Positions 2,486 through 22,352 of a DNA stretch of 22,709 bases are shown here, piece by piece. The position numbers were made by a program, and so were the translations under genes. Positions within the stretch are counted from its first letter, which is position 1; every line of letters begins with the position of its first letter. Under the pieces are notes generated by a model. That model was given only the letters and a program-made list of their open reading frames with translations, did not search any database and was not told where the DNA came from. Source of the DNA: a virus; the IMG/VR virus record IMGVR_UViG_3300040801_001010, positions 1 to 22,709 of that record. The stretch is one strand, 5' to 3'.

Positions 2486-2691
2486 TAAAATTAGACCCAA
2501 ATATCATACAAATAGGCAAGAAAGGTGATCCGTTTAAAGTTATTGCCGTTTCTAAAGGTGAAAATGAAAAGTGGATAAACGGCACTCTTAAATTCAACTA
2601 TACCGTACTTATACGATACGTAGGCACAAACAACTACAAAACCTTATATTTTAACCATAATGACGAAATTTATGACCCTCGATCAACTTAA
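2482..2691 (+). CDS. Small hypothetical protein
   Basis: A 69-residue protein that I do not recognise. Alternating hydrophobic and polar residues suggest a small all-beta fold (segments F-K-V-I-A-V, Y-T-V-L-I-R-Y-V and T-L-Y-F); there are no cysteines, membrane segments or known motifs. The start ATG overlaps the stop of the nuclease gene (ATGA), and its 3' end overlaps the next gene by 32 bases, so it is a link in the replication operon and is probably expressed with it. An accessory role in DNA metabolism is a guess from position only. Confidence 0.6.
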   Translation: MIKLDPNIIQIGKKGDPFKVIAVSKGENEKWINGTLKFNYTVLIRYVGTNNYKTLYFNHNDEIYDPRST

Positions 2692-3094
2692 AAGCATATT
2701 TGACGAAGCGTATGGCTTTGATATAGCTAGAAAGACACGTAAAAGAAATTACGCTTATGCACGTAAAAATTACGTCTATACCGCCTATAAATTGCACTTC
2801 ACTCTAGCATATATTGGCACAACGCTAAAGTGCAATCACGATTTGGTTCACTACCACGTCAATACCATACATTCTATAAATGACTATGATAAGCTAATTT
2901 TTAATAAAATAGTTCAAAAATACGATTTAGGATTGGAGACTTATGAAATGAAAAAATATACGTATATTGGTAATTTTCCTGAACTAGAGCAATTGACCCC
3001 TGAACAAATTGAACACTTTAGAGAGACTAGAGTAAAACCATATATTTTAATGTTAAAACATCATGAAAAAACCAATACACCTACTGCAAGATAG
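2660..3094 (+). CDS. Small protein with a DnaA domain IV-like DNA-binding region
   Basis: A 144-residue protein. Residues about 24-73 resemble the C-terminal DNA-binding domain of DnaA: a basic helix K-T-R-K-R followed by A-R-K-N-Y-V-Y-T-A-Y-K-L, then L-A-Y-I-G-T-T-L, then N-H-D-L-V-H-Y-H-V-N-T-I, which parallels the DnaA signature (Asp-His-Ser/Thr-Thr-Val-x-His-Ala). No AAA+ ATPase region is present. In DnaA this domain binds DnaA boxes by a helix-turn-helix; here the protein could mark the phage origin or regulate transcription. An in-frame ATG at 2672 would shorten it by four residues; the first ATG gives a 32-base overlap with the gene before. The C-terminal ~45 residues are charged and unassigned. 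The resemblance is by eye, without a profile search. Confidence 0.6.
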   Translation: MTKFMTLDQLKSIFDEAYGFDIARKTRKRNYAYARKNYVYTAYKLHFTLAYIGTTLKCNHDLVHYHVNTIHSINDYDKLIFNKIVQKYDLGLETYEMKKYTYIGNFPELEQLTPEQIEHFRETRVKPYILMLKHHEKTNTPTAR

Positions 3095-3305
3095 ACTATT
3101 AGAAATTACTGAAAGTCTAAGGGATGCTTTGAATAATGAATTAGATGCCGAATCTATAAATCAATTAGCAAACCACTACAATAGCTACTACGTTGCTTTA
3201 CAATTGTTAGACCTACATACTGAAATTGACTATTATTTTGACACATTGCACATAACACCTAAAGGCAATATCAGTTATTTTAAAGAAAAAATCAAAAATA
3301 ATTGA
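3063..3305 (+). CDS. Small hypothetical protein, helical
   Basis: An 80-residue, acidic, predominantly helical protein with no motif I recognise. The first half is a leucine- and glutamate-rich amphipathic helix (about residues 8-40), the middle is tyrosine-rich, and the end is lysine-rich. It overlaps the DnaA-like gene by 32 bases, so it is the last gene of the left cluster; the next start is 67 bases away and has its own promoter. Function unknown; position suggests a small accessory protein of the replication cluster. Confidence 0.55.
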   Translation: MKKPIHLLQDRLLEITESLRDALNNELDAESINQLANHYNSYYVALQLLDLHTEIDYYFDTLHITPKGNISYFKEKIKNN

Positions 3306-4195: not shown

Positions 4196-4240
4196 GTGTA
4201 TATTGCAATAAGTTTTTTCATAAGGTTAGTTAATTTTTAA

Positions 4241-4274
4241 AAGGTGAACAATCTTATGACGTTCACCTTTTTTT
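4241..4274 (+). terminator. Strong intrinsic terminator-like hairpin just before the terminase genes
   Basis: A perfect 9-bp stem AAGGTGAAC (4241-4249) / GTTCACCTT (4261-4269) with an 11-base loop runs into T-run 4268-4274. It lies only 12 bases before the terminase small-subunit ATG. It would end the early transcript from the left, yet leaves no room for a promoter before the terminase, so read-through or antitermination is implied. Confidence 0.8.
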
Positions 4275-4286
4275 ATCTAAAAAACA

Positions 4287-4697
4287 ATGGCATACTCAAA
4301 AGAGCAAATTGATACTATCTTTAATATAATTTGTCAAAGAATTATAAATGGGGAGTCGGTAAAGTCTATTTTAAGAGATAAAGATATGCCATCTACTCAA
4401 ACTTTTTGGGATTGGTTAAAAAATGATAAAATAAAATCAAACCAATACGCACGCGCAAAAGAGATAATGGCAGAACGTATTTTTGAGGATATTATACTAA
4501 TTGCAGACGGTACGGATGATGATATATATGTTGATGAGAATGGTATTGAGCAAACAAATCATAATGTTATTCAAAGGGATAGGCTAAGAATAGACGCTCG
4601 TAAATGGAATTTGTCTCGTATGTTTCCAAAAAAATACGGTGAAAAAATTGATATGACTTCGGGAGGTGAAAAGATTAGTATTAATTTCAAAGATTAA
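4287..4697 (+). CDS. terS: Terminase small subunit
   Basis: A 136-residue protein with the layout of DNA-recognising terminase small subunits: an N-terminal helix-turn-helix region (I-I-N-G-E-S-V-K-S-I-L-R-D followed by T-F-W-D-W-L), the Y-A-R-A-K-E-I-M-A-E-R motif (54-64), an acidic I-A-D-G-T-D-D-D segment, then R-D-R-L-R-I-D-A-R-K-W and F-P-K-K-Y-G-E-K near the C-terminus. TerS binds the packaging site and delivers DNA to the large subunit. Its stop is immediately followed by the ATG of the large subunit, the usual pairing. The start ATG is preceded by an A-rich leader and no Shine-Dalgarno; a strong terminator-like hairpin ends 12 bases upstream. Confidence 0.88.
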   Translation: MAYSKEQIDTIFNIICQRIINGESVKSILRDKDMPSTQTFWDWLKNDKIKSNQYARAKEIMAERIFEDIILIADGTDDDIYVDENGIEQTNHNVIQRDRLRIDARKWNLSRMFPKKYGEKIDMTSGGEKISINFKD

Positions 4698-5954
4698 ATG
4701 GACATTGAAATTACCAAGCCTAACTTAACCTCATACCAAAAGGATTTTCTTTATAATAATTCACGCTTTACAATCACTGAGGCTTCTACTAAAGTAGGAA
4801 AGACGTTTTCCCATATTTGGTGGATATTTGAAAGAGCGCACGAGAGTTGGAATAAAGAAGGGTATAACCATTGGTGGGTTGCGCCCGTTTACTCTCAAAC
4901 AAAAATAGCTTTCAAAAGATTACGGACAAAATTAGGACCTACAGGGGTTTATAAAATAAATGAATCTAATCTTACAATCACTTGCCCTAATGGTTCAGTA
5001 ATACATTTCAAATCCGCAGATAAACCCGACAATCTTTTTGGTGAGGATGTTTATTCTATCGTTTTTGACGAAGCACCGAGAGCAAAAGTCGACGCTTTCT
5101 ATGCGCTGAGGTCGACAATTACAGCCACTAAAGGTGAGATGAAATTAATAGGTAATTTCGGAGGTTTGGCTAATTGGATGCATCAATTAAAAGACAAAGC
5201 TAAGACCGACAAAGAGTATGCTTATTTCAAGATAACAGCATGGGACGCAGTTAATGAGGGGATATTAGACGAATCTGAAATAATACAAGCGCAGAAAGAT
5301 TTACCAACTAAAATATTCAAACAATTGTACCTAGCAGAACAAGAGGAGAGCGATAGCCAGTTGTGTAGCTATGAAAAAATAAAAGACCTTTGGACGAATT
5401 CCTTTGTTCCAAAAGGCGAGATGTATCTTAGCTGCGATATAGCTATGTTAGGAAGTGATAAGTTTGTAATATTTGTTTGGTGTGGGTTAAGGATAGTCGA
5501 CTATCTAATCAAAGACAAAACAGACGGAAAAGAGATTGAGAATATAATTAAAAGCGTAGCCGAAAAATACAATATCCCAAGGTCGCATATAGTATACGAT
5601 GCCGATGGTGTGGGTGGGTACTTGTCTAGTTATCTTGAAGGTGCTATTGCTTTTCATAACGGATCTAAGGCTAAGAATGGTAATTACAAAAATTTGAAAA
5701 ACGAGTGCGGTTATAAATTAGCTGAAAAGATAAACGCTAATCAGATTTACATAAATTGCGATATCCAAAAAGAATTAGTCATAAAAGAATTAGAGTGTTT
5801 GCAGTCGGATATGTTAGACAACGAGGGCAAAATACAGTTGATGTCAAAGAAAAAAATAAAAGAGATTATAAGTCATAGTCCCGATATATTAGATGCTTTA
5901 CTTTTAAGAATGTATTTCGAATTAGTACCAAACGCAGAGTTATGTTTAGCCTAG
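4698..5954 (+). CDS. terL: Terminase large subunit (ATPase-nuclease)
   Basis: A 418-residue packaging motor. The N-terminal ATPase shows a Walker A E-A-S-T-K-V-G-K-T (28-36), Walker B S-I-V-F-D-E-A (120-126) and a coupling motif I-G-N-F-G-G (151-156). The C-terminal RNase H-like nuclease shows acidic residues at Y-L-S-C-D-I-A (Asp247), I-V-Y-D-A-D-G-V-G (Asp301/Asp303) and S-P-D-I-L-D-A (Asp396/Asp399), typical of TerL. It cuts concatemers and pumps DNA into proheads through the portal. The gene abuts terS without a gap and overlaps the next by 13 bases. Unusually, the portal gene lies more than 10 kb downstream and not next to it. Confidence 0.93.
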   Translation: MDIEITKPNLTSYQKDFLYNNSRFTITEASTKVGKTFSHIWWIFERAHESWNKEGYNHWWVAPVYSQTKIAFKRLRTKLGPTGVYKINESNLTITCPNGSVIHFKSADKPDNLFGEDVYSIVFDEAPRAKVDAFYALRSTITATKGEMKLIGNFGGLANWMHQLKDKAKTDKEYAYFKITAWDAVNEGILDESEIIQAQKDLPTKIFKQLYLAEQEESDSQLCSYEKIKDLWTNSFVPKGEMYLSCDIAMLGSDKFVIFVWCGLRIVDYLIKDKTDGKEIENIIKSVAEKYNIPRSHIVYDADGVGGYLSSYLEGAIAFHNGSKAKNGNYKNLKNECGYKLAEKINANQIYINCDIQKELVIKELECLQSDMLDNEGKIQLMSKKKIKEIISHSPDILDALLLRMYFELVPNAELCLA

Positions 5955-6388
5955 AAAATTTAAAAGCAGGGGATTTTATAGATGTTGAAAATTATTATTT
6001 TCAAATGGTCAAACATACTGATACACCAGACGTTGAGACAGCAACAAAGTTTTATAAAATCTTAGTAGGTGGGCTTCCAAAAAGAGAAAAAGATTATCTT
6101 AAAATATTAGAGGAATTTCAAAAGCAACTACTAGAAATAAAGGAAACTTATATTTGGATATACAACCCTCCTCAATTGCCTAGCAGTACCGAACAGCATA
6201 ACCCTAGTCCATCAGATAGTCTTAAACAGGAATTTGCAGAAGATTATGGCGGTTATATCGAAATAATTTATTTACTTTGTAGCGCTAACTTGTTGAATGT
6301 AAACAAGGTTTTGAAAATGAAAGCTAAAGACTTTCTATTTTGGGGCGAGTATGCGGTACGTAAACGACTAATTGAATCTGTAAAATGA
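5942..6388 (+). CDS. Hypothetical phage protein, possibly tail assembly
   Basis: A 148-residue protein in two parts: an N-terminal segment (about 1-70) and a C-terminal helical segment (about 95-148) ending K-M-K-A-K-D-F-L-F-W-G-E-Y-A-V-R-K-R, joined by a Ser/Pro-rich linker (L-P-S-S-T-E-Q, P-S-P-S-D-S). The alpha-helical C-terminal part recalls phage tail assembly chaperones, but I could not confirm this. It overlaps terL by 13 bases and the next gene by 4 (ATGA), placing it at the head of a run of small virion-completion genes. No frameshift signal typical of chaperone G/GT pairs was seen. Function uncertain. Confidence 0.6.
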   Translation: MFSLENLKAGDFIDVENYYFQMVKHTDTPDVETATKFYKILVGGLPKREKDYLKILEEFQKQLLEIKETYIWIYNPPQLPSSTEQHNPSPSDSLKQEFAEDYGGYIEIIYLLCSANLLNVNKVLKMKAKDFLFWGEYAVRKRLIESVK

Positions 6389-6837
6389 TAGCTAAAATAA
6401 CAAATTATATAATAAATAGGTTCAATGCCGATGGTATGGTAAATACTATAACGCTAAGGGATGAAGATGTTATTGATATTGAAAAGGAAAATATATATCC
6501 TTTAGTAGCTATACAGATACTACCGAGGTCAGAAGATGCGGAGAATGATTTGTATGTTTACAACTACCGTATCCACATTTTACAACAAAGAGATACTAGA
6601 AAAGAGATACAACCCTCTAAGTTAATGAAAGATACCAACTATCTTGACAACTTAGCGGAGTGCGAGAGTATAGCTAATGCTTTTATTAACCACATCGAAC
6701 GTTTTGAGATTGATGAAAATATCAATATTGATACGTTGACATCTTTAGCCCCTCTGTATGACTATGCGGGTGCTAGTTTAGACGGGTGGAATTTTGATAT
6801 TGGATTAAGTTATCCTAATACTGGGTGTTGTGAATAG
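6385..6837 (+). CDS. Probable tail-completion or tail-terminator-like protein
   Basis: A 150-residue alpha/beta protein. The N-terminus has a helix (N-Y-I-I-N-R-F-N) and strand (Y-P-L-V-A-I-Q-I-L-P, 39-48), then Y-V-Y-N-Y-R-I-H-I-L, and near the end the segment L-D-G-W-N-F-D-I-G-L-S-Y-P-N (132-145). This helix-strand-helix-strand layout with a closing W-x-F-D-I strand resembles siphophage tail terminator / minor tail proteins that cap the tail tube. It sits among gp10-like proteins, which usually neighbour tail terminators in head-tail joining clusters. It overlaps both neighbours (4 and 8 bases). Assignment is by fold impression and context. Confidence 0.5.
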   Translation: MIAKITNYIINRFNADGMVNTITLRDEDVIDIEKENIYPLVAIQILPRSEDAENDLYVYNYRIHILQQRDTRKEIQPSKLMKDTNYLDNLAECESIANAFINHIERFEIDENINIDTLTSLAPLYDYAGASLDGWNFDIGLSYPNTGCCE

Positions 6838-7234
6838 GTTGGACGTATTAGCAGATAAGCCTTTAATGGCGATTTGCCGTGAGATTGTAAGCAAGTCTAA
6901 AGCATCAGCTAAAGTTGATACTGGACGCCTAAAAAGGTCTATATCTTATGTCATAGACTTGCAAGGTGTGCCAACTTTTACAGAAGTATTTTACGGGCAG
7001 TTTTTAGAAAATTCAGACCTTGAAGAAAATATAAAAGCAATGATGCCGAGTGATGTCGCTTGGAAACTAATATACACCGATGACAATGGTCAGCCGTTCC
7101 AAGTTATAAGAGCAACAGCATCAGGACGTATTGCAACGACAAAAGCAACTAAGGCAACGACTAGGAATAGCTTAGGAATTGCAGGAATTAGAAACTTTTT
7201 AAAAAGGATAAGCGATGGCAAAAAGGAGGACTAA
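6830..7234 (+). CDS. HK97-gp10-like head-tail joining / tail protein (copy 1)
   Basis: A 134-residue protein whose N-terminal region A-S-A-K-V-D-T-G-R-L-K-R-S-I-S-Y (about 26-41) matches the hallmark of HK97 gp10-like tail-completion proteins (a helix followed by Asp-Thr-Gly-x-Leu-x-x-Ser-Ile). The C-terminal half is Thr/Ala-rich with a run A-T-T-K-A-T-K-A-T-T-R, less typical. The GTG start at 6830 gives an 8-base overlap with the preceding gene; an in-frame ATG at 6866 is the alternative and would drop 12 residues. The next gene carries a second, diverged version of the same motif. These proteins act at the junction between head and tail. Confidence 0.6.
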   Translation: MNRLDVLADKPLMAICREIVSKSKASAKVDTGRLKRSISYVIDLQGVPTFTEVFYGQFLENSDLEENIKAMMPSDVAWKLIYTDDNGQPFQVIRATASGRIATTKATKATTRNSLGIAGIRNFLKRISDGKKED

Positions 7235-7544
7235 AGAGCAGATAGCAGCCGACAAAATTATAAAAGCTAACTTAAATATTTTAGGTGAGCAGATTTATAG
7301 AGATGCTAGACGTACAACTAGAGTTTTAACTGGAGCTTTGAAGAATAGTATCAACTACGCTGTGAAACCAGATACAACTTTGACGATGTTTCAATTAGAC
7401 TATGGTTCAGACGTTAGACCAGCAGGGCAAGACTCAGGAGAAAAAGATGCGTTATTTATAGCGGTGAAAAAAAACCTACCTAAAGGCGTTGAGGTTATAA
7501 AAAAGGAATTGACGGAAAGTATTTTATTTCCGTTTAGAAAATAA
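7215..7544 (+). CDS. HK97-gp10-like head-tail joining / tail protein (copy 2)
   Basis: A 109-residue protein with the same hallmark as the gene before it: I-Y-R-D-A-R-R-T-T-R-V-L-T-G-A-L-K-N-S-I-N-Y (about 27-48). The following beta region, ending in Q-L-D-Y-G-S-D-V-R-P, and a C-terminal helix complete the small fold. It overlaps copy 1 by 20 bases and stops 6 bases before the next start. Two adjacent gp10-like genes suggest tandem duplication followed by divergence, one perhaps acting at the head-tail interface and the other in tail completion. Family call moderate; division of labour is inference. Confidence 0.6.
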   Translation: MAKRRTKEQIAADKIIKANLNILGEQIYRDARRTTRVLTGALKNSINYAVKPDTTLTMFQLDYGSDVRPAGQDSGEKDALFIAVKKNLPKGVEVIKKELTESILFPFRK

Positions 7545-7550
7545 AAAGAT

Positions 7551-8687
7551 ATGGCAATAACACCTTTTGCAATTGAAACAGAAGACCAGATATACTTATG
7601 TGGTTCACCGATACATATTGCTGTATCTAACTCTAGTCAAGATACTAGCATTGTTAAAGCTGAAATTGAATTATACATTTGGAGCGGTCAACTAAACAAC
7701 CCACCTAGCCTACCTAACTACATTTTAGAATCTAATAAAGTATCGCAAAATGACACGTATATTAGCTTTCAAATAGCTGAGAAGTTAGAAGCTGAAATTG
7801 ATAATACAAGATTTGCATGGGTTCAGGGTTCTAACTTTCCGGAGGTTCGTGGCGAGGGTGTTTTTTGGCAAATAAAAAAGATTATAACCAATACCAACGG
7901 TACTGAAATTATCGAGGGTGTTACCAACTTTACTACTAGAGGTTATCGTTATGATTTTGAGCAAGTCGGAAATATACCAAACAAGCAACAACCTTATCTT
8001 GGATTGAAACCTATAGATTACAATCGATATTATACGGATAAAATCAAGTATGTTAGACGTTCTTTTGACTTTACGCAATCTTTAGCAAATTGCACGTCTG
8101 AAAATATTATCAAAAAGGAATTCATAAACCCAACAGAATGTAAGGCGCAATTAGGTGAGCGGTTTTTGATTGTTTACCTTAACCGTTGGGGCTTGTTTGA
8201 CTACTTCACGCCTTATGGTAAAGTGACAAATCCTATAAGTATAGATTCTGAGGATGGCACGAAACTATACCGAAATCCTAATGCTATTAATAACAGTATT
8301 ATTCACCATAAGCGAAGATTAATAAATGAAGTGGCGTTGAAATACGTCATCAATACAGGTGGTTTACATGAAAATATGGTCGAGCAAGTTGAAGAGGTCA
8401 TGTATTCGCCGTTAATTTATTTAGTGAAATTCACAGGCGAAACGTTTACGACTGAACGTATAGGCTTGACAGTAGATAGTACAACAATATCAGTAGATAG
8501 TACGGAAATTACGGTAGACGCTATTACCATAACCGTTGATGACGTTGGTTTATTTTCAGAATTTCAACAGATACCAGTTATCAACGCAAACAAATCTTTT
8601 GATATTAAGACCCGACTAACAGACAAAGGAAAAATTAATTATGATTTAGAGTTTGAGAGCGGCAACCGAATTAACAACTTGAAATAA
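7551..8687 (+). CDS. Probable tail structural protein with V-D-S-T heptad repeats
   Basis: A 378-residue, beta-rich protein that I do not recognise by family. It begins with an Ig-like stretch (F-A-I-E-T-E-D-Q-I-Y-L) and contains W-x-Q-I-K-K strands; no signal peptide or membrane helix. Near the C-terminus, residues 307-331 form three and a half repeats of a seven-residue unit T/S-V-D-S/A-T/I-x-I, likely an elongated beta segment. Position between head-tail joining genes and the tape-measure region, and overlap of its TAA with the following ATG (TAATG), argue for a virion tail or baseplate role. Large size and beta content fit a distal-tail or adhesin-bearing component, but this is inference. 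Confidence 0.55.
   Translation: MAITPFAIETEDQIYLCGSPIHIAVSNSSQDTSIVKAEIELYIWSGQLNNPPSLPNYILESNKVSQNDTYISFQIAEKLEAEIDNTRFAWVQGSNFPEVRGEGVFWQIKKIITNTNGTEIIEGVTNFTTRGYRYDFEQVGNIPNKQQPYLGLKPIDYNRYYTDKIKYVRRSFDFTQSLANCTSENIIKKEFINPTECKAQLGERFLIVYLNRWGLFDYFTPYGKVTNPISIDSEDGTKLYRNPNAINNSIIHHKRRLINEVALKYVINTGGLHENMVEQVEEVMYSPLIYLVKFTGETFTTERIGLTVDSTTISVDSTEITVDAITITVDDVGLFSEFQQIPVINANKSFDIKTRLTDKGKINYDLEFESGNRINNLK
8469..8543 (+). repeat. Tandem 21-base coding repeats (V-D-S-T heptads)
   Basis: Three and a half 7-codon units, each encoding T/S-V-D-S/A-T/I-x-I, lie in frame near the 3' end of the preceding tail gene. The first two units share gtagatagtac; the later ones have diverged. This looks like expansion of a small beta-strand unit. 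Confidence 0.7.
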
Positions 8688-10903
8688 TGCTTTATAACGT
8701 CGAAGTCTACATATCGAAAGACAATCTGAACTTTAGTAAAATAGAGTTAAAAGATAAAGAGTCTATTGATCTTAAGTATATTTTGAAAGATACTAAAGAC
8801 TTGACAAAGGTATATAGTCCCTTTTCAAAATCTTTCACTTTTGGTGGTTCACCAGCAAACCAAAAAGCGGTTGGATTTATAGGTGACAATAAACTAAAGC
8901 GTTCCATTCAATCTAACATTTTCTTTTGCAAAATCTACATAAATAAGCAACTATCTGAAAATGGTAAATTAAAGATACGAGAGATTAGAGAAGATAGTGG
9001 GCGTATCCAATCTTATACAGCCAATTTTACTACAAGCCTTTTATCTTTAGCCAATCGCATGGGCGATGACTTAATAAACGATTTGCCACCTAACAAGCAG
9101 CTTATACAATGGCGTGGGAATACCGTGCAAAATTACGTTCGTTCAAAGCAGCAAATGCCAAGACCCTTAGCCAATGGGTTAATAGGTAGATTTTACACAC
9201 CCCTAATATCAAACAAAAGAGTATGGCAATTTAGCGAAGATTCTAACCGTAATTTATTAGACAATATTAGCAGGGTTGCAAATACCAATCCTAATGACGA
9301 AAATAGTATAAAGGTTAATGAATTAAGGCCAGCTATACAGGGGCGTACTATAATTGACTTAATAAAATTAAAATACAACTTAGATATTGTAATACCTTTA
9401 GAAGATAACGATTATTATAACGATTGGTATATTTATTGCAATGCTGAAAATATCACAAGCGATGAGCCAATGACTTATGATGTGCTGAATGGCTTTAGTG
9501 ATTTTATCATTACAAATCAATTCAACCCTACAAGACAAAGAAAATACAATATTACAACCTCTACTTTTAACGATACATTTTTATTATCACGCCAATCCCC
9601 ATGGGATGTTGATTTTGACGATGAGGTTAAATTGATAGTGAAATTTGAAAATGTTATAAATACAATTAGTGATGCAGATGCTGAGATTTTAGTTTTTTTA
9701 GAATTGCTGAACGGCTTTATTTTTAACGAAGTTTCGGCAACGGTAAGCAATGGCGATATTATTTGCGAGTTTGTAATACCAGATACTTTTTTTCAAGCCA
9801 ATTTCAATCAACTTAATTTTAAAATCAAAGTAAAACCTAGCACCCCTGTTACGTGGACTAATTCAAGCGTTAAAATTTATTATAATTACAGAAGTATTTC
9901 GCCATTATCGTTTGCTACAATTTCAAAAGAATCTATAAATGACAACTCTAATGCGATGCAATCGTCGAATATAGATTTATACAAAGCTATTCCAGAGACG
10001 AAATGCATTGATTTTATAAAGAGTTTTTTTAAAACTTTTAATATTTCGGTTTACCAAAATGACACAACGGACGGGCGTTTGTTTTTCTTAACGCCCGAGG
10101 ATTTAAAAGCTGAAAACAAAGAGTATTCAAAAAAAGAGGTCGACTATACACCTTATGTATGGTCGAAAAAAATAAATAAAGAGATACCAACAGAGTATAA
10201 TTTTTATAATTTCAAGCATAAAAATACTAAGTATAAGTCTAATATTGACTATAAGAATGCGAGGGGTGTTGAGTTTGGACAATTGACATATCCAACAACC
10301 CCACCTGAAAGCGACAAAGAGGAGTTTATAATTCAGACCGATTTTAGTATTATACCTACCGTTCCTTTGTCTGGGCTTTCAGAACTACGCACTAGCTACG
10401 GGTTTACGAATGACACCCCTACAATCGCTCCAAATGGTGCTTTAAGATATACGCCAAACTTAGGGGAGTTGACTATGTTTTTTGGAAATACTTTACAAAA
10501 CCTATCTAAACCTTTAGGCTTTCAGGTAGTTGCCGTGAGTGGGCAAATGCTAGTATCAAATATCACGTCTTATATTCCAACATCGCCAGTTCATGAAAGC
10601 GGTTTTAGTTTAGGTTTCGGATTGATTGAGCAATCCACAGTACAATCGCTTTACAACTCATTTTATAAAGAGCAGACCGAAAGGCTATTAGACCCGAATG
10701 TATTAGAATCTACGTTTATGTTGAAACTACCAGCGTCAGAGTTGGTAATTTCAAAAAGCAATGACATACAAGGACAGTCTAATATACCTAACGGGTTCAG
10801 ACTTCAAAATGATATTATCATTCAAGAAAATAAGTATAGCATTTTAGAGGCGACTATTGATAAAACAACGGGCAATACTACACTTAAATTATTAAACTAT
10901 TAA
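8687..10903 (+). CDS. Large tail/baseplate hub-like structural protein
   Basis: A 738-residue protein. The N-terminal region has D-L-T-K-V-Y-S-P-F-S-K-S-F-T-F-G-G-S-P-A-N-Q (38-59), a pattern I associate with large structural proteins of flavobacterial phages that carry a similar S-K-x-F-x-x-P-x-S-x-x-N motif. The rest is beta-rich with repeated Y-N-F-Y-N-F and aromatic segments and no enzymatic motif that I can see. Its start overlaps the preceding stop by one base, and the tape measure starts 4 bases after its own stop; distal tail and hub proteins normally lie beside the tape measure. It probably belongs to the tail tip or baseplate. A muralytic domain was looked for and not found. Confidence 0.55.
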   Translation: MLYNVEVYISKDNLNFSKIELKDKESIDLKYILKDTKDLTKVYSPFSKSFTFGGSPANQKAVGFIGDNKLKRSIQSNIFFCKIYINKQLSENGKLKIREIREDSGRIQSYTANFTTSLLSLANRMGDDLINDLPPNKQLIQWRGNTVQNYVRSKQQMPRPLANGLIGRFYTPLISNKRVWQFSEDSNRNLLDNISRVANTNPNDENSIKVNELRPAIQGRTIIDLIKLKYNLDIVIPLEDNDYYNDWYIYCNAENITSDEPMTYDVLNGFSDFIITNQFNPTRQRKYNITTSTFNDTFLLSRQSPWDVDFDDEVKLIVKFENVINTISDADAEILVFLELLNGFIFNEVSATVSNGDIICEFVIPDTFFQANFNQLNFKIKVKPSTPVTWTNSSVKIYYNYRSISPLSFATISKESINDNSNAMQSSNIDLYKAIPETKCIDFIKSFFKTFNISVYQNDTTDGRLFFLTPEDLKAENKEYSKKEVDYTPYVWSKKINKEIPTEYNFYNFKHKNTKYKSNIDYKNARGVEFGQLTYPTTPPESDKEEFIIQTDFSIIPTVPLSGLSELRTSYGFTNDTPTIAPNGALRYTPNLGELTMFFGNTLQNLSKPLGFQVVAVSGQMLVSNITSYIPTSPVHESGFSLGFGLIEQSTVQSLYNSFYKEQTERLLDPNVLESTFMLKLPASELVISKSNDIQGQSNIPNGFRLQNDIIIQENKYSILEATIDKTTGNTTLKLLNY

Positions 10904-10907
10904 TAAA

Positions 10908-12941
10908 ATGGCGGACGATTTAGAAAATATTAAAATTACGTTCGACACGAATGCGGACGACGTTAAGAAATCGACAGATAGCCTAAACGCATCAGTTGAA
11001 AAGAATATCAGTACCAACCAGAAGTTGGGCAAGTCTAATAAAGACGTTAAGAAAACGCAGGACGATGTAAGTAAAAGTAGCGGTCAACAAAAGGCAAGTT
11101 TTGAAGATTTAGGCGGGGGGATTGGTCAAGCTATCCAAAGCGTAAAAGGGTTATCAAAAGCATTTTTAGCTTTATTAGCAAATCCAGTAGTGTTGGTGAT
11201 AACTGCAATTGTAGGTGCGGTAACGTTATTGTTCAAAGCGTTCACATCCACAAAGGCAGGTGGTGAGCAACTGGATAGGGTTATGGCAGGGCTTGGTGCG
11301 GTTATGGACGTGTTGCGTGACAATGTATTGAGGTCTGTAAGTGCTTTTAAGAATTTAGTTACGTTAAATTTCAAGGGGTTAATTGGCGACTTAAAAGAGA
11401 TAGCGGGTTCGGGTACTGAGATAGTAGATGAATTTAACAAAGCATCAGAAGCGATGCGTACACTTCAAGAGGTCTCAGATACCACAAGGGAGTTGAGTGT
11501 GGCACGTGCAAAACTTAATAGAGATTTAGCGGAGAGTGAGCGTATTTTAACGGATGAAAATGCAACGTTAGAAGAAAAACGTAAAGCATTAGAAAAGGTT
11601 AAGGATTTAGAGGGTAAGCAAACAGAGCAGGAATTAGCAAACGCACGTAAAAGGGTCGAGGCAATACAAGCGCAAAATGATTTAAGCGATCCAGATGCAG
11701 AAGCAGAAGCTTTACAAGCGCTAGCGGAAGCACAAATAGCTTTATTTGATTTAGAAAAAAAGAGTGCCGAAGACAGACGTAAGATAAGCGAATTCAACAA
11801 AAGAATAGACGGCGAAGAAAAGGCACGTAAAAAAGAGATAGCCGACCAAGCGAGAGCGCAGTACGAGGAGCGAAAAAAGCAACGAGAGCAAGAGCAAAAA
11901 GAGATTGAAGAATTTAATAAGTCCGTAAAAGATAAAGAAGCGGAACTTTTAAAGCAGTTGCAAGATTTACAGGATGAAACAGACCAGCAAAGATTAGACC
12001 GACAACGTAAAAGAGATTTAGCAGAGATTGAAGCGTTACGAAAAAAGGGTGCGGATGTTTCTAAAATTCTTGAAACTACCAATAAAATCTATTTAGAAAA
12101 GCAAAATGATTTAAACGATAAGCTGAAAGAAATACAAGATAAAAAAGACGAAGAAGAACAAGCCAAAAGAGATGCTTTCTTAAAACAGTTTGAAGATAAT
12201 ACAGAGTTAAACTACCTAAAGGCTAGAAACGAAGCTGAAATTGAAGAAATTAGACTACATAACGAAAGGTTATTACAGCAAAAACTAGATGCTAAAATAG
12301 CAGAAAGTGATGCTTTGGGTGGAACTGAAGCAGAAAGGTTAGAGCGAGAACAGCTCATAAGGGATGAATTTAATCAGAATTTCTTAGACAATCAACAAAA
12401 CGCTAATGACGCGAAGATAGCACAAGAGCAAGCCTTACAACAAGCTATCGCAAGTGTTGGAGATAATGCCATAGCCACAGCCAAAAATATATTTGCTAAA
12501 AATAAAGAGGTTCAAAAAGGTATTATTTTAGCCGAGGGCGGTGTAGCTTTAGGAAAGGTAGCAGTCAATACCGTTGAAGCGGTTAAGAAATCTAACGCAG
12601 CATCGCCTTTAACGTTTGGTATGCCATGGTCAGGTGTTCATATTGCCACAGGAATCACAAGCGCATCATCTATAATTTCAAGCACTCAAAGAGCATTGAA
12701 AGCCGTTGGCGGTGGGGGTTCAATTTCAGCAGGGGCGCAACCTAATGTTGCGACAGCTAGAAGTGCTGGAGTTTCAGCAACTCCACAAACAGGATTCCAA
12801 GCGAGTAGCGAAAATCAGATAGCGACAAGTATAAGCCAAGCCCAAACAGAACAGCCACCAATTAGAACGTATGTTGTTACGTCAGACGTTACAACTGGTC
12901 AAAATTTAGACGATGCCTTAATACAAGAAAATAGTTTTTAA
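10908..12941 (+). CDS. Tail tape measure protein
   Basis: A 677-residue protein with tape-measure architecture: a polar N-terminus (I-K-I-T-F-D-T-N-A-D-D-V), a hydrophobic segment A-L-L-A-N-P-V-V-L-V-I-T-A-I-V-G (88-103), a long Glu/Lys/Gln-rich coiled coil from about 180 to 520, an Ala-rich helical region and a Gly/Ser/Ala-rich C-terminus ending in R-T-Y-V-V-T-S-D-V-T-T-G-Q-N-L-D, a tail seen in Bacteroidota phage tape measures. The protein sets tail length and is ejected with DNA; using the usual ~0.15 nm per residue the tail would be about 100 nm. No peptidoglycan hydrolase domain is evident. It is the last gene before a 141-base gap. Confidence 0.88.
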   Translation: MADDLENIKITFDTNADDVKKSTDSLNASVEKNISTNQKLGKSNKDVKKTQDDVSKSSGQQKASFEDLGGGIGQAIQSVKGLSKAFLALLANPVVLVITAIVGAVTLLFKAFTSTKAGGEQLDRVMAGLGAVMDVLRDNVLRSVSAFKNLVTLNFKGLIGDLKEIAGSGTEIVDEFNKASEAMRTLQEVSDTTRELSVARAKLNRDLAESERILTDENATLEEKRKALEKVKDLEGKQTEQELANARKRVEAIQAQNDLSDPDAEAEALQALAEAQIALFDLEKKSAEDRRKISEFNKRIDGEEKARKKEIADQARAQYEERKKQREQEQKEIEEFNKSVKDKEAELLKQLQDLQDETDQQRLDRQRKRDLAEIEALRKKGADVSKILETTNKIYLEKQNDLNDKLKEIQDKKDEEEQAKRDAFLKQFEDNTELNYLKARNEAEIEEIRLHNERLLQQKLDAKIAESDALGGTEAERLEREQLIRDEFNQNFLDNQQNANDAKIAQEQALQQAIASVGDNAIATAKNIFAKNKEVQKGIILAEGGVALGKVAVNTVEAVKKSNAASPLTFGMPWSGVHIATGITSASSIISSTQRALKAVGGGGSISAGAQPNVATARSAGVSATPQTGFQASSENQIATSISQAQTEQPPIRTYVVTSDVTTGQNLDDALIQENSF

Positions 12942-12972
12942 AAAAAAATGTAAATTATATTAATTTTTTTTG

Positions 12973-12979
12973 TAATTTG
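12973..12979 (+). promoter_or_regulatory. Weak -7-like promoter element
   Basis: TAATTTG at 12973-12979 resembles the Bacteroidota -7 element (TAnnTTTG) with one base fewer, in an AT-rich gap after the tape-measure gene. No good -33 TTG lies 17-23 bases upstream. It is followed by a 5-bp inverted repeat CAGAA/TTCTG (12980-12991). Tentative. Confidence 0.25.
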
Positions 12980-12992
12980 CAGAAAATTCTGT

Positions 12993-13046
12993 ATGAAGAT
13001 GTACAGCACCAACAAAAATAAGCATAAATATAGCCTTTCTAGTTAA
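12993..13046 (+). other. Possible 17-codon leader ORF
   Basis: ATG 12993 to TAA 13044-13046 encodes 17 residues rich in Lys, Ser, Asn and Tyr. The frame covers the 5' arm of the hairpin at 13032-13059 and stops in its loop, an arrangement like transcription-attenuation leaders. Too short to judge as a coding gene. Confidence 0.2.
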
Positions 13047-13063
13047 TTCTGGACAGGCTTTTT
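13032..13063 (+). terminator. Terminator-like hairpin before the protease gene
   Basis: AGCCT (13032-13036) pairs with AGGCT (13055-13059); inside, CTAG (13039-13042) pairs with CTGG (13049-13052, one G-U) around the loop TTAATT. A T-run 13059-13063 follows. The hairpin ends 19 bases before the ATG at 13083, leaving no space for a promoter. Confidence 0.55.
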
Positions 13064-13082
13064 GTGCTTTATAGTGATTTAT

Positions 13083-14120
13083 ATGAAGACATATAAGATA
13101 TTACCAATGGACGAAAAGGGGTTGCTTAGAACCTCGTTAGTATTAGACCCTGCTATCAAGCAAAATTTAATGGCTTTTTCAGAAGAAGCCGATCCGATGC
13201 GCTTTTTAGACGAAGAACAGCAAATAATTTTTGCACCTGCATTAATTCCAAATCAAAAAATCTTTAGAAAAAGTATTAAAGGCGAACCAGCTGAGGTGTA
13301 TTTCGATGCGGAAACAATCAAAGACTTACATATTAGAGGGTCACGCCACGGTTACGACAGCAAGATTAACCTCAACCATGAGGAGGCTAATACTGAGGGT
13401 GTATTTTGTTTTGAGAATTGGATAGTTGAAGATGAAAAACTAGACAAGGCTTATAAAATGGGTTTTGAAGTACCAGTCGGAACATTAATGAAAGGTTATA
13501 AGATTGACAATCCGGATGTTTGGGCAAAAGTGAAAAGCGGTGAAATAACAGGCTTGTCAATTGAAGCTTACTTAGATACCATAGAAGATGAAACACTTAA
13601 TTTTAATAATCAACAAATGAATAAAAAGAGCGTGTGGGAGCACATAAAAAGTCTATTTGCTGGAGAGGACAGCAAAGAGTATGCAACTGGATATTTCGGT
13701 CAATCTTTAGAAGAGGGGTCAATTATCACAGATGCAGAAGGTAACGCCAAGCCTAATGAAACGTTTGAGTACGAGGGCAAAAAGTACACAACAGATGACA
13801 TGGGCGCAATCTCTAAAATTGAAGCTATTGATGTGGAAGATTTAAAAGATGATGGTGAAGATTGGGAAAAGCGTGTAGCGGATTTAGAAGCTGAAAACGC
13901 AGAGTTAAAAGCTAAGCTAACCGAGTGGGAAGCTAAGGCAAGTGAGGACGAAAAAACAAAAATGAGTGCTGAAAAGTCTATTGAAGAAAAAGACAATGAA
14001 ATCGCTAAGTTAAAATCAGAATTGATTGAACTTAAAGAGATTCCAAAAGCACCAGCGTTTGTTGAAGATAGCGAGTACCAAAAGCGTTTACAGAAAATGA
14101 AAAAAAATAGAGGACTATAA
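13083..14120 (+). CDS. XkdF-like prohead serine protease with scaffold-like C-terminus
   Basis: A 345-residue protein. The N-terminal ~170 residues match the XkdF-type phage protease: F-A-P-A-L-I-P-N (50-57), L-N-H-E with candidate catalytic His99, W-I-V-E-D-E-K-L-D-K-A (113-123), G-T-L-M-K-G-Y-K-I-D-N-P-D-V-W (133-147) and S-G-E-I-T-G-L-S-I-E-A with candidate Ser159. The C-terminal part (about 262-318) is a long charged coiled coil like a scaffolding protein. Such fusions mature and shape the procapsid. An internal ATG at 13617 in a favourable A-rich context could yield a separate 167-residue scaffold. Start chosen at ATG 13083; an upstream in-frame TTG at 13062 would start inside the hairpin. 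Its TAA overlaps the next ATG. Confidence 0.8.
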   Translation: MKTYKILPMDEKGLLRTSLVLDPAIKQNLMAFSEEADPMRFLDEEQQIIFAPALIPNQKIFRKSIKGEPAEVYFDAETIKDLHIRGSRHGYDSKINLNHEEANTEGVFCFENWIVEDEKLDKAYKMGFEVPVGTLMKGYKIDNPDVWAKVKSGEITGLSIEAYLDTIEDETLNFNNQQMNKKSVWEHIKSLFAGEDSKEYATGYFGQSLEEGSIITDAEGNAKPNETFEYEGKKYTTDDMGAISKIEAIDVEDLKDDGEDWEKRVADLEAENAELKAKLTEWEAKASEDEKTKMSAEKSIEEKDNEIAKLKSELIELKEIPKAPAFVEDSEYQKRLQKMKKNRGL

Positions 14121-14332
14121 TGGCACGAAAAAAAACACAAGTTGAGCCAAAAGAATCAGTAGAGTTTCTAAACCCTTTTAACAAAGGTGTCTCATTCGCT
14201 CAATTTGTAGAAGCAATCAAACAATCAGGGAAAAATTTAGACGAGTATTCTAAAAATAAATTATCAGGCGAGCAAATCGCTTGGCTAAAAAAAGAAATCA
14301 AAATCTTAAACACACTAAATAATGGCAATTAA
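14120..14332 (+). CDS. Small hypothetical head-region protein
   Basis: A 70-residue basic protein between the protease-scaffold and the major capsid gene. It opens with A-R-K-K-T-Q, then a helical K-G-V-S-F-A-Q-F-V-E-A-I-K-Q segment and G-E-Q-I-A-W-L-K-K-E-I. Genes of this size in this place are often decoration, scaffold-related or head-completion proteins, but no family is recognised. It is tightly coupled: the ATG overlaps the protease stop (TAATG), and its 3' end overlaps the capsid start by 11 bases. Real by context; function unknown. Confidence 0.55.
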   Translation: MARKKTQVEPKESVEFLNPFNKGVSFAQFVEAIKQSGKNLDEYSKNKLSGEQIAWLKKEIKILNTLNNGN

Positions 14333-15359
14333 TTACAGCGGCACAAAAACCGAAACCACAGAATTACAGGAGATACAATCAGAGTTATATCTTCAATCGA
14401 ACACCTTTGTTGATAGAGTTATCGACATTCAGGAGGGTCACAAGTCAGGCGCAGACGTTTATGAAAGTAGAGTAGATGTTGAATTTTCAGCAGCTAGTTC
14501 AGCAGGCGTAACAGCTACTGGAGACGTTACTTTGGATGTTAAGAAAACTAAAGTAGATCTGCAAACTTTTGAAGTAAAAGATGTTATAGATGAAACTACT
14601 TTGAAAGGCACACGCTTCGAGCGTTCAATCGCAGCAGGGGCGTTTAGCCACATTTCAGATGAGTTTGACAGACGTGTTCTAATTGATATGCAACCAGCTA
14701 TTGGTCGTAAATTAGACCAAAATATATGGAATGGCGCAACGGCAGAAACTAAAACAGCAATCGCAGCGCTAATAGCAGGAGCAGGGCAAGGGTCTATATC
14801 AGCAAGTGCAAAAGCATTAGTAGCAGCGATGCCAACTACTTTGTTTGATAGTTTAGCGGCTAAAATCTTATACAACGACTCACAAGCTAAGGTTGGACCA
14901 GGTGCTGGACCAGGTGGTGGATTGGGTGACTATGTGAAAGTTGCTGGAACGACAATCACTAAAGACAACATCGCTGAGGAGTATGCTAAGTTATATTTAG
15001 GTAGTCCAGATGAGGTGTTGAATGGTATCGAAGAGCCTAAGATATTTGCACCTTTCAAAGATGAACAATTAATGATGGCAGCTAACAACTCAGTTGGTGC
15101 AGCATCAAACCAAAACTTTGTGTTTGAGGGTGGCAAGGCTTACTACAATAGTATCGAAGTTGTATTCGTTCCTTTGGTAGGATTCAGAATTTTAACCGTT
15201 CCTAAGTATTTGAAAGTACTTATGGATTTAGTAAGTGATATGAGTTTACTAAACATAGGGCAAATGGCAAACGGAGCGCAACAGCGATATATTAAGAATA
15301 TCCAAACCATTGCGACTTTCGTAACAAACCAAAGGTACATCACGCTTTACGGTGGATAA
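14322..15359 (+). CDS. Major capsid protein
   Basis: A 345-residue protein placed directly after the protease-scaffold and a small gene. It has the look of an HK97-fold coat protein: an N-terminal extension with Q-E-I-Q-S-E-L-Y-L-Q-S-N-T-F-V (16-30), an A-A-S-S-A-G-V-T-A-T-G-D-V segment, the E-F-D-R-R-V-L-I-D-M-Q-P-A-I-G spine-like helix (114-128), an Ala-rich region, and A-Y-Y-N-S-I-E-V-V-F-V-P with K-Y-L-K-V-L-M-D near the C-terminus. A Gly-Pro-rich insert (G-P-G-A-G-P-G-G-G-L-G, 192-202) interrupts the middle. Codon choice is more Ala/Gly-rich than neighbours, as expected for an abundant protein. A strong hairpin follows the stop, consistent with high expression. Confidence 0.82.
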   Translation: MAINYSGTKTETTELQEIQSELYLQSNTFVDRVIDIQEGHKSGADVYESRVDVEFSAASSAGVTATGDVTLDVKKTKVDLQTFEVKDVIDETTLKGTRFERSIAAGAFSHISDEFDRRVLIDMQPAIGRKLDQNIWNGATAETKTAIAALIAGAGQGSISASAKALVAAMPTTLFDSLAAKILYNDSQAKVGPGAGPGGGLGDYVKVAGTTITKDNIAEEYAKLYLGSPDEVLNGIEEPKIFAPFKDEQLMMAANNSVGAASNQNFVFEGGKAYYNSIEVVFVPLVGFRILTVPKYLKVLMDLVSDMSLLNIGQMANGAQQRYIKNIQTIATFVTNQRYITLYGG

Positions 15360-15371
15360 TATTAATTAAAG

Positions 15372-15397
15372 ACCGCTCTTTAGTTAGGGCGGTTTTT
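15372..15397 (+). terminator. Strong terminator-like hairpin after the major capsid gene
   Basis: ACCGCTCT (15372-15379) pairs with AGGGCGGT (15386-15393, one G-U pair) around the loop TTAGTT, followed by T-run 15393-15397. This is an 8-bp GC-rich stem, good for an intrinsic terminator. It ends 17 bases before the next ATG, so the gene downstream cannot have its own promoter between hairpin and start. Confidence 0.75.
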
Positions 15398-15414
15398 ATA
15401 AAACTTAAAAAATT

Positions 15415-15933
15415 ATGTGCGGAACGACATTAACGGCATCAAGAAAAAAAAGCGGATATGCTAAACCAAAAGGCTATAAGGCTATATCTTTTGCTGTTTG
15501 GGATAGTGCCAATTTAATACAAACAACAGCAGCAGGGGTTGTTGAATTGCCAACTGGACTGGTTGAGATTTATAGATTCGAGGTTAAAAATACAGCCGAC
15601 AATTTTATCGAAACAGCAACAAAAGACAGGGCAACAATGACAGCGGATAAGGTAGGTGCAGGAACGTTTGCGCTTATGTACTGCGATAGAATCAAAAACT
15701 TAACAGATGCACAGGCGTTGTTAGACGGTGTATTCAATGTATTTTTTGAGGGCAACGACGGCAGTACAATTGTTGCTGGATCGGTAAATGGAGCAGAGAT
15801 TCTAACGGTAGTTGAAAGTACAGATGCGCAAGGCTTTGTATTTACTTTAGAAACTATCGAGCCTATTTTTGCTCAAACATTGACTGAAACAGCGGTCGCA
15901 GACTATAAGACTGCATTAGTAGCAACAGCCTAA
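15415..15933 (+). CDS. Probable major tail tube protein
   Basis: A 172-residue beta-rich protein. Segments of interest are Y-R-F-E-V-K-N-T-A-D-N-F-I-E-T-A-T-K-D-R-A-T (53-74), F-N-V-F-F-E-G-N-D-G-S-T-I-V-A-G-S-V-N-G-A-E-I (107-129) and G-F-V-F-T-L-E-T-I-E-P (140-150). This strand layout, with a D-G/N-G-containing loop and a late G-x-x-x-T-x-x-x-x-E-P strand, is that of phage tail tube proteins I know from Bacteroidota phages. It follows the capsid gene and a hairpin, fitting a highly produced structural protein, although the tape measure lies upstream, not downstream. A decoration protein is the main alternative. Confidence 0.55.
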   Translation: MCGTTLTASRKKSGYAKPKGYKAISFAVWDSANLIQTTAAGVVELPTGLVEIYRFEVKNTADNFIETATKDRATMTADKVGAGTFALMYCDRIKNLTDAQALLDGVFNVFFEGNDGSTIVAGSVNGAEILTVVESTDAQGFVFTLETIEPIFAQTLTETAVADYKTALVATA

Positions 15934-16268
15934 TGAAAGTATTGCAAATCGAGACAACCAACGGCGTTGAGGTCGTTGTGAGACATGAGCCTTTGACGTC
16001 GGATGTCTTGATTTTACAATTAAGAAACGAAACAACCGACGAAACGGATAGCAATACTGTAGGTTGGGTTAAACAAAGAGACAGGCTTGTTATTAGTATT
16101 CCAACTAACGAGCCTTTTTTCAAATTAGGTGCTAAATACGAGATGACTTTGCGAAATGGCGATACAGTCATATATAGAGGCAAAGCAATTGTAGTAGCAC
16201 AAGGTACGGATATTCAAAACTACACACCATCGAAACACAAGATACAGCGGTTCAAGACCAAGGACTAA
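15933..16268 (+). CDS. Hypothetical phage structural-region protein
   Basis: A 111-residue protein, mostly beta-strands (V-L-Q-I-E-T, V-E-V-V-V-R-H-E-P-L, R-L-V-I-S-I-P, K-Y-E-M-T-L, V-I-Y-R-G-K-A-I-V-V-A). No catalytic motif or membrane helix. The ATG overlaps the preceding TAA (TAATG), and the portal starts 5 bases after its stop. Small beta proteins in such places may be virion components such as head-tail connectors or stoppers, but I cannot assign it. Confidence 0.55.
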   Translation: MKVLQIETTNGVEVVVRHEPLTSDVLILQLRNETTDETDSNTVGWVKQRDRLVISIPTNEPFFKLGAKYEMTLRNGDTVIYRGKAIVVAQGTDIQNYTPSKHKIQRFKTKD

Positions 16269-16273
16269 CTTTA

Positions 16274-17320
16274 ATGACGTTTTCGGCTTTTATGCCGAGT
16301 ATAACTGACATTGTTCAGGGTACTAAGTACGTTTTGAACGGTGATAACAATAAAAATTACAAGTTGTTTGCTGATGCATATGAGGATAGCGTTACTAATT
16401 CAGCTTGTATAAACGATATTGTAAATCTTATCATTGGTGAGGGACTTGTTAATAACACAAAAGATAGTATCAACCCTAATAAAATCTTATCTTCTTATGA
16501 TTTAGGGCTAATAGCTTTAGACTACCGCATACAGGGTATAGGTTCGTATCAGGTTATTTGGTATGAAAATAAGGTAGTGAAAATTAAGCACGTACCAATA
16601 CGTAATATTGCGTTTAATTTAGACGACAATATGCGTGAAACAGGGTACTGGTATAGTTACGATTGGACACAACGGTATAAGTATAAGCCAGTTTTATACA
16701 ATAAATTTGACGGTACAGAGCCTGAAAATGGCATTAATATAGCGGTTATAAAAAGACCGTCTAATGAGCCTATATTTCCACGTCCTGCATGGTATTCCGC
16801 TCTAAAATGGGCGCAAGATGAAGGCTTATTAGCGCAACACTCTTACCAAGATGTTGGCACTGGTTTTTCAGGGCAAAAGCTCATCAACTGGGTAGGCGGT
16901 CAAGGTTTAGACGCAGATGCTAAGCGTGAGTTAGCAGGTAAATTGCGAGATAAATTCACAGGTATCAACGGTCAACGATTAGTTGTTTCAATTAACAACA
17001 GCGTTGAAAATGCGGTAATAGTTGATAATATAGACCCCCCGAATGTAAATGCAACTTATGTAAACTATACAGAAGAGGCAGAGCGCAAAATATTAATAGC
17101 ACACAGCTATCCGCATATCTTATTAGCAGGAAGTAAGACAGGATTTTCAAGCAATGCGGATGAAATAGCAGTGGCAACGAAGTCGGTATATCGTAGGGTT
17201 ATAAGACCAGAAAGAGAAGTTATATTGGCGAGTTTTACAAAGGTTTTCAAAACTATCGATGCGACTTGTGATTTAGACTTTAAGGATTTTGAAGAGAAAA
17301 AAATTGATAGCAATGAGTAG
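16274..17320 (+). CDS. Portal protein
   Basis: A 348-residue protein with portal hallmarks: S-A-C-I-N-D-I-V-N-L-I-I-G-E-G-L (43-58), I-Q-G-I-G-S-Y-Q-V-I-W (86-96), H-V-P-I-R-N (106-111), G-Y-W-Y-S-Y-D-W-T (124-132), F-P-R-P-A-W-Y-S-A-L-K-W (168-179) and G-T-G-F-S-G-Q-K-L-I-N-W (195-206). The order and spacing match small portal proteins of Bacteroidota siphophages. The portal forms the ring through which DNA enters and leaves and to which the terminase docks. It is compact compared with classical portals (~400-500 residues). It is followed by a connector gene overlapping by 8 bases. Its separation from the terminase is unusual. Confidence 0.8.
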   Translation: MTFSAFMPSITDIVQGTKYVLNGDNNKNYKLFADAYEDSVTNSACINDIVNLIIGEGLVNNTKDSINPNKILSSYDLGLIALDYRIQGIGSYQVIWYENKVVKIKHVPIRNIAFNLDDNMRETGYWYSYDWTQRYKYKPVLYNKFDGTEPENGINIAVIKRPSNEPIFPRPAWYSALKWAQDEGLLAQHSYQDVGTGFSGQKLINWVGGQGLDADAKRELAGKLRDKFTGINGQRLVVSINNSVENAVIVDNIDPPNVNATYVNYTEEAERKILIAHSYPHILLAGSKTGFSSNADEIAVATKSVYRRVIRPEREVILASFTKVFKTIDATCDLDFKDFEEKKIDSNE

Positions 17321-22337: not shown

Positions 22338-22352
22338 AACGTATAACAAAAA

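Follow-up and report, generated by a model that had tools for sequence, protein, structure and literature searches.

Conserved predicted RNA hairpins about 16 nucleotides before start codons in marine and freshwater flavobacterial viruses

Marine and freshwater flavobacterial viruses carry, as comparison of their DNA shows, conserved RNA hairpins about 16 letters before the start codons of several genes. Here we describe these hairpins as they occur in IMG/VR virus record IMGVR_UViG_3300040801_001010 (22,709 nucleotides (nt), the whole of which we call the window) and in its relatives, the nearest named ones being phages of marine Flavobacteriaceae. In the window, hairpin 1 precedes the terminase small subunit gene terS (4287..4697), hairpin 2 precedes the prohead protease gene, the first of the head operon (13083..14120), and hairpin 3 lies between the gene taken to encode the major capsid protein (14322..15359) and the gene behind it (15415..15933). 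The three hairpins, the genes around them and the leader elements described for the window are on the plus strand. An earlier note on this DNA had located the hairpins correctly, 12, 19 and 17 nt before the ATGs at 4287, 13083 and 15415, and had suggested that one shared control step connects these late genes. We find that the three hairpins are three different things. On balance, we lean toward reading hairpins 1 and 2 as leader attenuators and hairpin 3 as a partial terminator or an mRNA-protecting hairpin.

That the hairpins are real was borne out by a scan in which each position on both strands was evaluated for a single hairpin with a T-rich tail. They proved to be the top three plus-strand hairpins with a T-tail in the window (-13.3, -12.3 and -12.0 kcal/mol). 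All three are intergenic, with cores at 4239-4271, 13032-13059 and 15372-15393, and each is a stable hairpin directly followed by a T-run, as in an intrinsic terminator. Furthermore, when the transcribed gaps were folded and compared with dinucleotide shuffles, z-scores of -3.2 (terS), -4.2 (protease) and -4.4 (behind the capsid gene) were obtained. A simple consensus terminator scan returned 9 sites against 10.4 expected; since the three hairpins were not among them, the bare count is uninformative here. For comparison, searches with the capsid, terminase and protease proteins yielded about 200 viral loci, and 23 related contigs were covered wholly or for the greater part. The compensatory changes that the earlier note had proposed to look for are indeed present in related phages, where the same gaps hold hairpins with unrelated stem sequences, and the hairpins are therefore under selection.

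A distance of 12-20 nt between hairpin end and ATG was found for 55 of 181 non-redundant T-tailed intergenic hairpins taken from 25 phage sequences, as compared with 2 of 68 from Bacteroidia chromosomes (Fisher 4e-7), the latter sample being a rough control that is small, phylogenetically broad and partly of higher G+C. As the earlier note had argued, the space left between hairpin and ATG is too small for a promoter.

The leader of the protease gene

As the covariation among relatives shows, the protease gene is preceded by two RNA structures maintained by selection, HpI and HpII. They form part of a leader composed of a Bacteroidota -7 box, HpI with its covarying stem and GAAG loop, HpII, about 16 nt and the ATG; a structure that covaries and keeps its place in front of a gene is what characterizes a cis-regulatory leader RNA. 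In the window, HpI (12989..13006, CTGTA-TGAAGATG-TACAG) is a small hairpin located where the mRNA is predicted to have its 5′ end, and it matches model R1 with 44.7 bits. HpI is present in 42 of 44 non-redundant protease leaders. It consists of 5-6 base pairs (bp) and a loop U-GAAGNN-G, in which GAAG is invariant or near-invariant, while five of seven stem pairs have changed on both sides. A selection-free check gave the same picture: exactly one TGA[AT]G occurs in 42 of the 44 leaders, each within complementary arms of 5-6 bp. With a covariance model of box and HpI, the protease leader was the only strong site in nearly every contig having one. The HpI model had no match in 119 Bacteroidia genomes, a result that is uninformative, there being no positive genome among them.

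HpII, which is hairpin 2 (13032..13059, extendable to 13020-13069), has the loop TTAATT and is followed by TTTTTG. A T-tailed HpII stands just before the protease ATG in 44 non-redundant leaders, and in the 42 that bear HpI its end lies 13-20 nt from the ATG, with one at 8 nt. All 42 of these have a T-tail; a mechanical T-tail test gives too low a figure, since in the energy minimum the stem runs on through the T-run, as happens in the window. For the 26 leaders with a six-base loop, 12 of 13 stem pairs have changed on both sides and 95.6% of the cells are paired, and sliding one arm against the other lowers pairing to at most 49%. TTAATT is the commonest HpII loop (17/42), with close variants in several more leaders, and it was found in none of the 68 terminator-like hairpins of Bacteroidia chromosomes. 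A hairpin with this loop also occurs in the cultivated Nonlabens phage P12024L (L209, 9865-9892), about 25 nt before gp16 and behind a TATATTTG box.

The predicted promoter of the head operon lies upstream of both hairpins. Its -7 box in the window, TAATTTGC (12973..12980), matches the position of a TAHHTTT[GA] box in relatives. The form TAHHTTTG was found 12-26 nt upstream of HpI in 33 of 41 protease leaders (0.9 in shuffles), TAHHTTT[GA] in 39 of 41 (3.5 in shuffles), and a wider set that includes TAATTTGC in 41 of 41 (4.7 in shuffles). The -7 element of the Bacteroidota primary sigma factor is thus found in most of the protease leaders, the window itself having the TAnnTTGY form, known in F. 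psychrophilum as promoter motif SM5 (PMC9723704). According to published spacing, the start site lies 4-5 nt after the -7 box (PMC6847099), which would place the start within about 10 nt of HpI, and HpI therefore at the very 5′ end of the mRNA; for the head operon a start site near 12985 is predicted. A sigma-70 promoter scan of the window was dropped, this being the wrong type of promoter for a Bacteroidota-type host group. For the protease, and probably also for terS, the hairpin would thus be transcribed as part of the 5′ leader of the gene itself, as a Bacteroidota-type promoter is predicted to lie on its upstream side. The earlier note had argued that each downstream gene must be reached by read-through. 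This stands for the protease and probably for terS, but not as a need of the upstream operon only: polymerases from the leader's own promoter are predicted to need read-through as well. A natural contrast is provided by the relatives L116, L140, L047 and L166, which lack HpI. Their hairpin is further from the protease ATG, and a TAnnTTT box lies between the two. These loci appear to have the ordinary order of terminator and then promoter, HpI accompanying the reversed order of promoter, HpI, hairpin and gene.

In several relatives the model found weaker second sites (24-34 bits), which lack HpII and lie 5-11 nt ahead of a tail-gene ATG. HpI is therefore probably a recognition site in its own right. 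Such lone copies precede 6 of 24 and 2 of 33 non-redundant copies of two tail genes, homologues of the window genes at 7551 and 6385; the loci are L249 11162, L248 3755, L251 5316, L258 10282, L262 near 4320, L246/L247, L239 and L236. In the window, the protease start codon itself falls within an HpI-like hairpin, TTATA-TGAAGACA-TATAA (13079-13096). This may be due to chance, since the start regions of relatives mostly begin ATGAAA; an HpI-binding factor could also bind there.

The terS hairpin and a second class of leader

Several other genes of the relatives have a different arrangement, in which a box and a leader lead up to a T-tailed hairpin some 16 nt ahead of the ATG and HpI is absent. 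Members of this second class have a 5′ segment in the leader that is complementary to the hairpin loop. The complementarity of leaders to their own loop averaged 17.0, as compared with 13.3 for mismatched leaders (0 of 5000 permutations), and when the search was limited to the stretch behind the -7 box the values were 17.7 and 12.1 (0 of 5000). This effect was absent from the HpI leaders (12.7 vs 12.8), and kissing between HpI and HpII was rejected for want of excess complementarity. The 5′ segment is often itself the loop of a small hairpin, which makes a kissing pair possible. The second-class leader was found in 44 records of cultivated Flavobacterium phages. In filifjonk9-1, a phage of Flavobacterium strain LMO9, it lies at 13880-13974 of NC_048831. 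Between the Muminvirus phages filifjonk9-1 and mumin6-1, the 5′ segment changes from GTGAGACG to GTGGAACG and the loop from CGTCTCAC to CGTTCCAC, that is, two exact compensatory changes in otherwise nearly identical DNA. In these related phages, the sequence comparison thus shows that selection maintains the pairing of segment and loop. The longest complementarity among the leaders, 18-19 nt (GCTAGTAGGCGATGGTCG), was seen on the minus strand of contig G010 (35697, L226), with a hairpin before a gene for 174 amino acids.

The pre-terS hairpin of the window probably belongs to this second class. Hairpin 1 (4239..4271) has an 11-bp stem, the loop AATCTTATGA (4250-4259), a T-run and 15 nt to the terS ATG. 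Its loop is complementary over 10 nt, with one G-U pair, to the upstream segment TCATAAGGTT (4218..4227; shuffle p=0.01, 200 shuffles), and its own upstream region ranks first for this loop. The predicted -7 box, TATATTGC (4199..4206, TAnnTTGY type), would place the start site near 4211; it is weak by itself, TA[ACT][ACT]TTGC being present six times in the window. In other contigs, hairpins lie 12-28 nt ahead of unrelated terS genes, two of these terS assignments having been made by sequence look only. In the related terS locus L223, a hairpin is followed by a TAnnTTT-type box close to the ATG. A tblastn search with terL, intended to place terS in the full relatives, failed because the proteins were too diverged.

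The genes behind second-class leaders include those for replication-initiation proteins, primase/helicase and endonuclease. As replication genes are preceded by the same arrangement, it is not a signature of late genes. Nor is a single control step for the three gaps of the window supported, for their upstream arrangements differ: HpI with its GAAG loop before the protease hairpin, a 5′ segment complementary to the loop before the terS hairpin, and nothing before the post-capsid hairpin. The motif TAGTTAAT, which the earlier note had considered to be shared, is at chance level: the window contains it 4 times where 2.45 would be expected, and a count of 4 was reached by 25 of 100 shuffles.

The post-capsid hairpin

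Hairpin 3 (15372..15393, extending to 15367-15398) has a TTTTT tail and lies in the gap between the capsid gene and the next. A strong hairpin occupies 51 of the 52 non-redundant gaps that follow the capsid gene, at distances of about 11 nt from the preceding stop codon and 18 nt from the next ATG. In the cultivated Cellulophaga phage phi46:1, a phage of C. baltica NN016046, post-capsid hairpins lie at 2476-2499 and 3115-3145. A T-run of at least four after the last G-C pair was present in only 20 of the 51 hairpins, as compared with 38 of 47 one gene further downstream. The post-capsid hairpin is therefore not obligatorily a terminator: the hairpin is conserved while the terminator property is not, and a 3′-protecting or weak terminator role fits best. 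For hairpin 3, this favors the third option of the earlier note, protection or balancing of mRNA, or else a weak terminator. About 600 nt behind the capsid gene, loci of one sub-clade (L070, L084, L063 and their relatives) have a terminator-like hairpin after the next gene, and then a conserved stretch around TTTTTTGCCAC before an ATG, which is possibly another promoter or signal.

Possible modes of action and known systems

In the reading toward which we lean, transcription of a leader would pass from the promoter through a promoter-proximal RNA element and the terminator-like HpII to the ATG, about 16 nt further on. HpII would be the attenuator, an intrinsic terminator at which some or all transcripts end short of the gene, and read-through would be decided by the promoter-proximal element. 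In the head operon, read-through would be controlled by a factor binding the conserved GAAG loop of HpI, and in the second class by the loop-loop pairing. The intercistronic hairpin 3, fixed behind the capsid gene, would be a partial terminator or protect the 3′ end, giving more capsid message than downstream messages. Because hairpins 1 and 2 would sit in the leaders of their own genes, attenuation or antitermination becomes more plausible for these two. In addition, T-tails in 42 of 42 HpI leaders, as against 20 of 51 post-capsid hairpins, indicate that the T-run is kept where attenuation is proposed.

Several observations weigh against attenuation. In eight relatives, HpI occurs without HpII, 5-11 nt before tail-gene ATGs; a pure attenuator would not need such copies, and they suggest a translational role or a separate regulator. 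The -7 boxes of the window are of the TTGC form and not the consensus, the terS leader was not found before seven related terS genes of the same family, and in the window this leader is assigned from the one complementarity with p=0.01. Nor would a terminator have to keep a constant distance of 16 nt from the ATG. Promoter positions and start sites are predictions, and termination and read-through we infer from the DNA.

It is rather unlikely, in our estimation, that the hairpins act in mRNA stability, processing or translation instead of termination. A hairpin bordering the ribosome footprint on its upstream side would then guard the 5′ side of the message or free an A-rich start, and hairpin 3 would guard the 3′ end of the capsid message. 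This would agree with the fixed distance of about 16 nt, which leader and intercistronic hairpins have in common, with the retention of the post-capsid hairpin without a T-run in many relatives, and with the dependence of Flavobacterium translation on an unstructured start region (PMC6847099). Lone HpI copies 5-11 nt before ATGs likewise keep a translational role open. However, neither stability nor translation alone demands the T-tail, which is found in 42 of 42 HpI protease leaders and in 38 of 47 hairpins one gene downstream of the post-capsid gap.

Processive antitermination is a less probable alternative and, we believe, an unlikely one. Here, as in lambda nut or HK022 put, HpI would load a factor onto RNA polymerase or modify it directly. 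A polymerase so equipped would run through HpII and also through the terminators that follow the capsid gene and its downstream neighbor, whereas stray polymerases would stop there. The elements put and conAn work in this way (PMC9378689, PMC8955417), each genome has one strong HpI at the head-operon leader with several hairpins downstream in the same operon, and the HpI loop is constant while its stem varies, as for a protein or polymerase target. However, HpI also occurs directly before tail-gene ATGs, partly without a visible promoter, no candidate antitermination protein was identified, and the capsid family of L038, L050 and L062 has the same downstream hairpins without HpI. That the hairpins are plain leaky operon-end terminators, close to the next ATG through compact genome packing, is improbable. 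In its favor, the gaps that follow the capsid gene and its downstream neighbor are short, with medians of 54.5 and 67 nt, and any hairpin there is bound to be near both gap ends. In the protease leaders, however, the hairpin keeps its distance from the downstream ATG (13-20 nt, in one case 8), while the upstream gap is about 70-140 nt and also contains the -7 box and HpI. Moreover, Bacteroidia host hairpins are rarely so placed (2/68), and HpI and the loop pairing would be left unexplained.

More tentatively than the attenuator reading itself, and with some doubt, we consider that the leaders may represent an undescribed family of flavobacterial phage leader RNAs at operon heads, comprising a kissing-loop attenuator class and a GAAG-loop, factor-recruiting class, the latter being the first processive antitermination-type RNA of Bacteroidota. 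In the kissing class, the loop of a 5′ hairpin would pair intramolecularly with the loop of the terminator beside the start codon; in the GAAG-loop class, HpI would recruit a phage or host factor that gives polymerase access to the capsid operon. Elements of known kinds include leader attenuators, nut/put sites and partial terminators. The lambda systems pR′-tR′/Q and N-nut resemble the phage leaders in that a late or early promoter is followed by a terminator before the first gene; the phage leaders differ in having a Bacteroidota promoter. The boxB of lambda nutL is a small hairpin with a GAAGA-like loop, and lambda boxB has a GNRNA pentaloop, whereas HpI has a hexaloop GAAGNN closed by U-G or U-A. 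No lambda-type boxA and no N or Q homologue turned up, boxA and N not having been searched for systematically.

HK022 putL is likewise a structured RNA just downstream of a promoter, early in the transcript and 5′ of terminators, but put is about 70 nt long with two stem-loops and has no terminator of its own (PMC9378689), while the second hairpin of the phage leader is terminator-like and abuts the gene. The put RNA works without any protein factor, its two stem-loops making contact with the zinc-binding domain of polymerase beta′. The conAn element of pLS20-type conjugative plasmids is a control RNA at the start of an operon with several intrinsic terminators (PMC8955417); its hosts are different, and a ConAn1-like protein was not found here. 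Loop-loop pairing on a terminator-type leader is shared with pT181-type attenuators and plasmid kissing-loop antisense systems (PMC3753616), in which the partner is an antisense RNA acting in trans, whereas both loops of the phage class would be in the same leader. Leader attenuation and partial termination have been documented in a Flavobacterium host, but for host genes and other structures (PMC9723704), and the phage leaders match no Rfam family. Indeed, no match at the gathering score was obtained in the window or in stretches of seven relatives; weaker matches (up to E=1) to eukaryotic small nucleolar RNAs, a plastid element of the 3′ untranslated region and one small RNA were below that score and were set aside. 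In the open-access literature, we found no description of the phage leaders and nothing on point for Bacteroidota phage antitermination, Flavobacterium or Cellulophaga phage transcription, or protease leaders; subscription papers were mostly outside this search.

Bacteroidota phages are among the most abundant marine and gut phages, and little is known about their transcription control. The leaders recur at the head of replication and capsid operons, their covariation is strong enough for the design of exact mutants, and cultivated Muminvirus phages carry them, so that direct testing is possible. If the attenuator reading is true, the leaders would offer small, orthogonal RNA switches for bacteria without Shine-Dalgarno control.

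With respect to the genes concerned, Pfam supported the identities that the earlier note had given to terS (PF20901, E=1.9e-34; also phrog_1482) and the protease (PF14550, Peptidase_S78_2, E=1.3e-12). The gene at 14322 had no Pfam or PHROGs match. We regard it as the capsid gene because it follows the protease gene and because its product is homologous (33% identity by tblastn) to a structural protein of the Cellulophaga phage phi46:1 virion, a protein seen by mass spectrometry. The gene at 15415, previously a putative tail tube gene, likewise had no Pfam or PHROGs match and is conserved in relatives by tblastn. The late gene order is unusual (4287-17320): the tape-measure gene precedes the protease and capsid genes, and the portal gene follows the capsid gene. 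A protein of 144 amino acids (2660-3094) has a weak, sub-threshold match to the C-terminal helix-turn-helix domain of DnaA. Lastly, a stretch of 164 bp (22333-22496), outside which the window is without a near match, is 92.7% identical to Polaribacter phages Danklef_1-5 and 86.5% identical to Tenacibaculum phage JQ. It spans most of a minus-strand open reading frame of 50 amino acids (22353-22505), where Danklef has no annotation, and it looks like a recent transfer.

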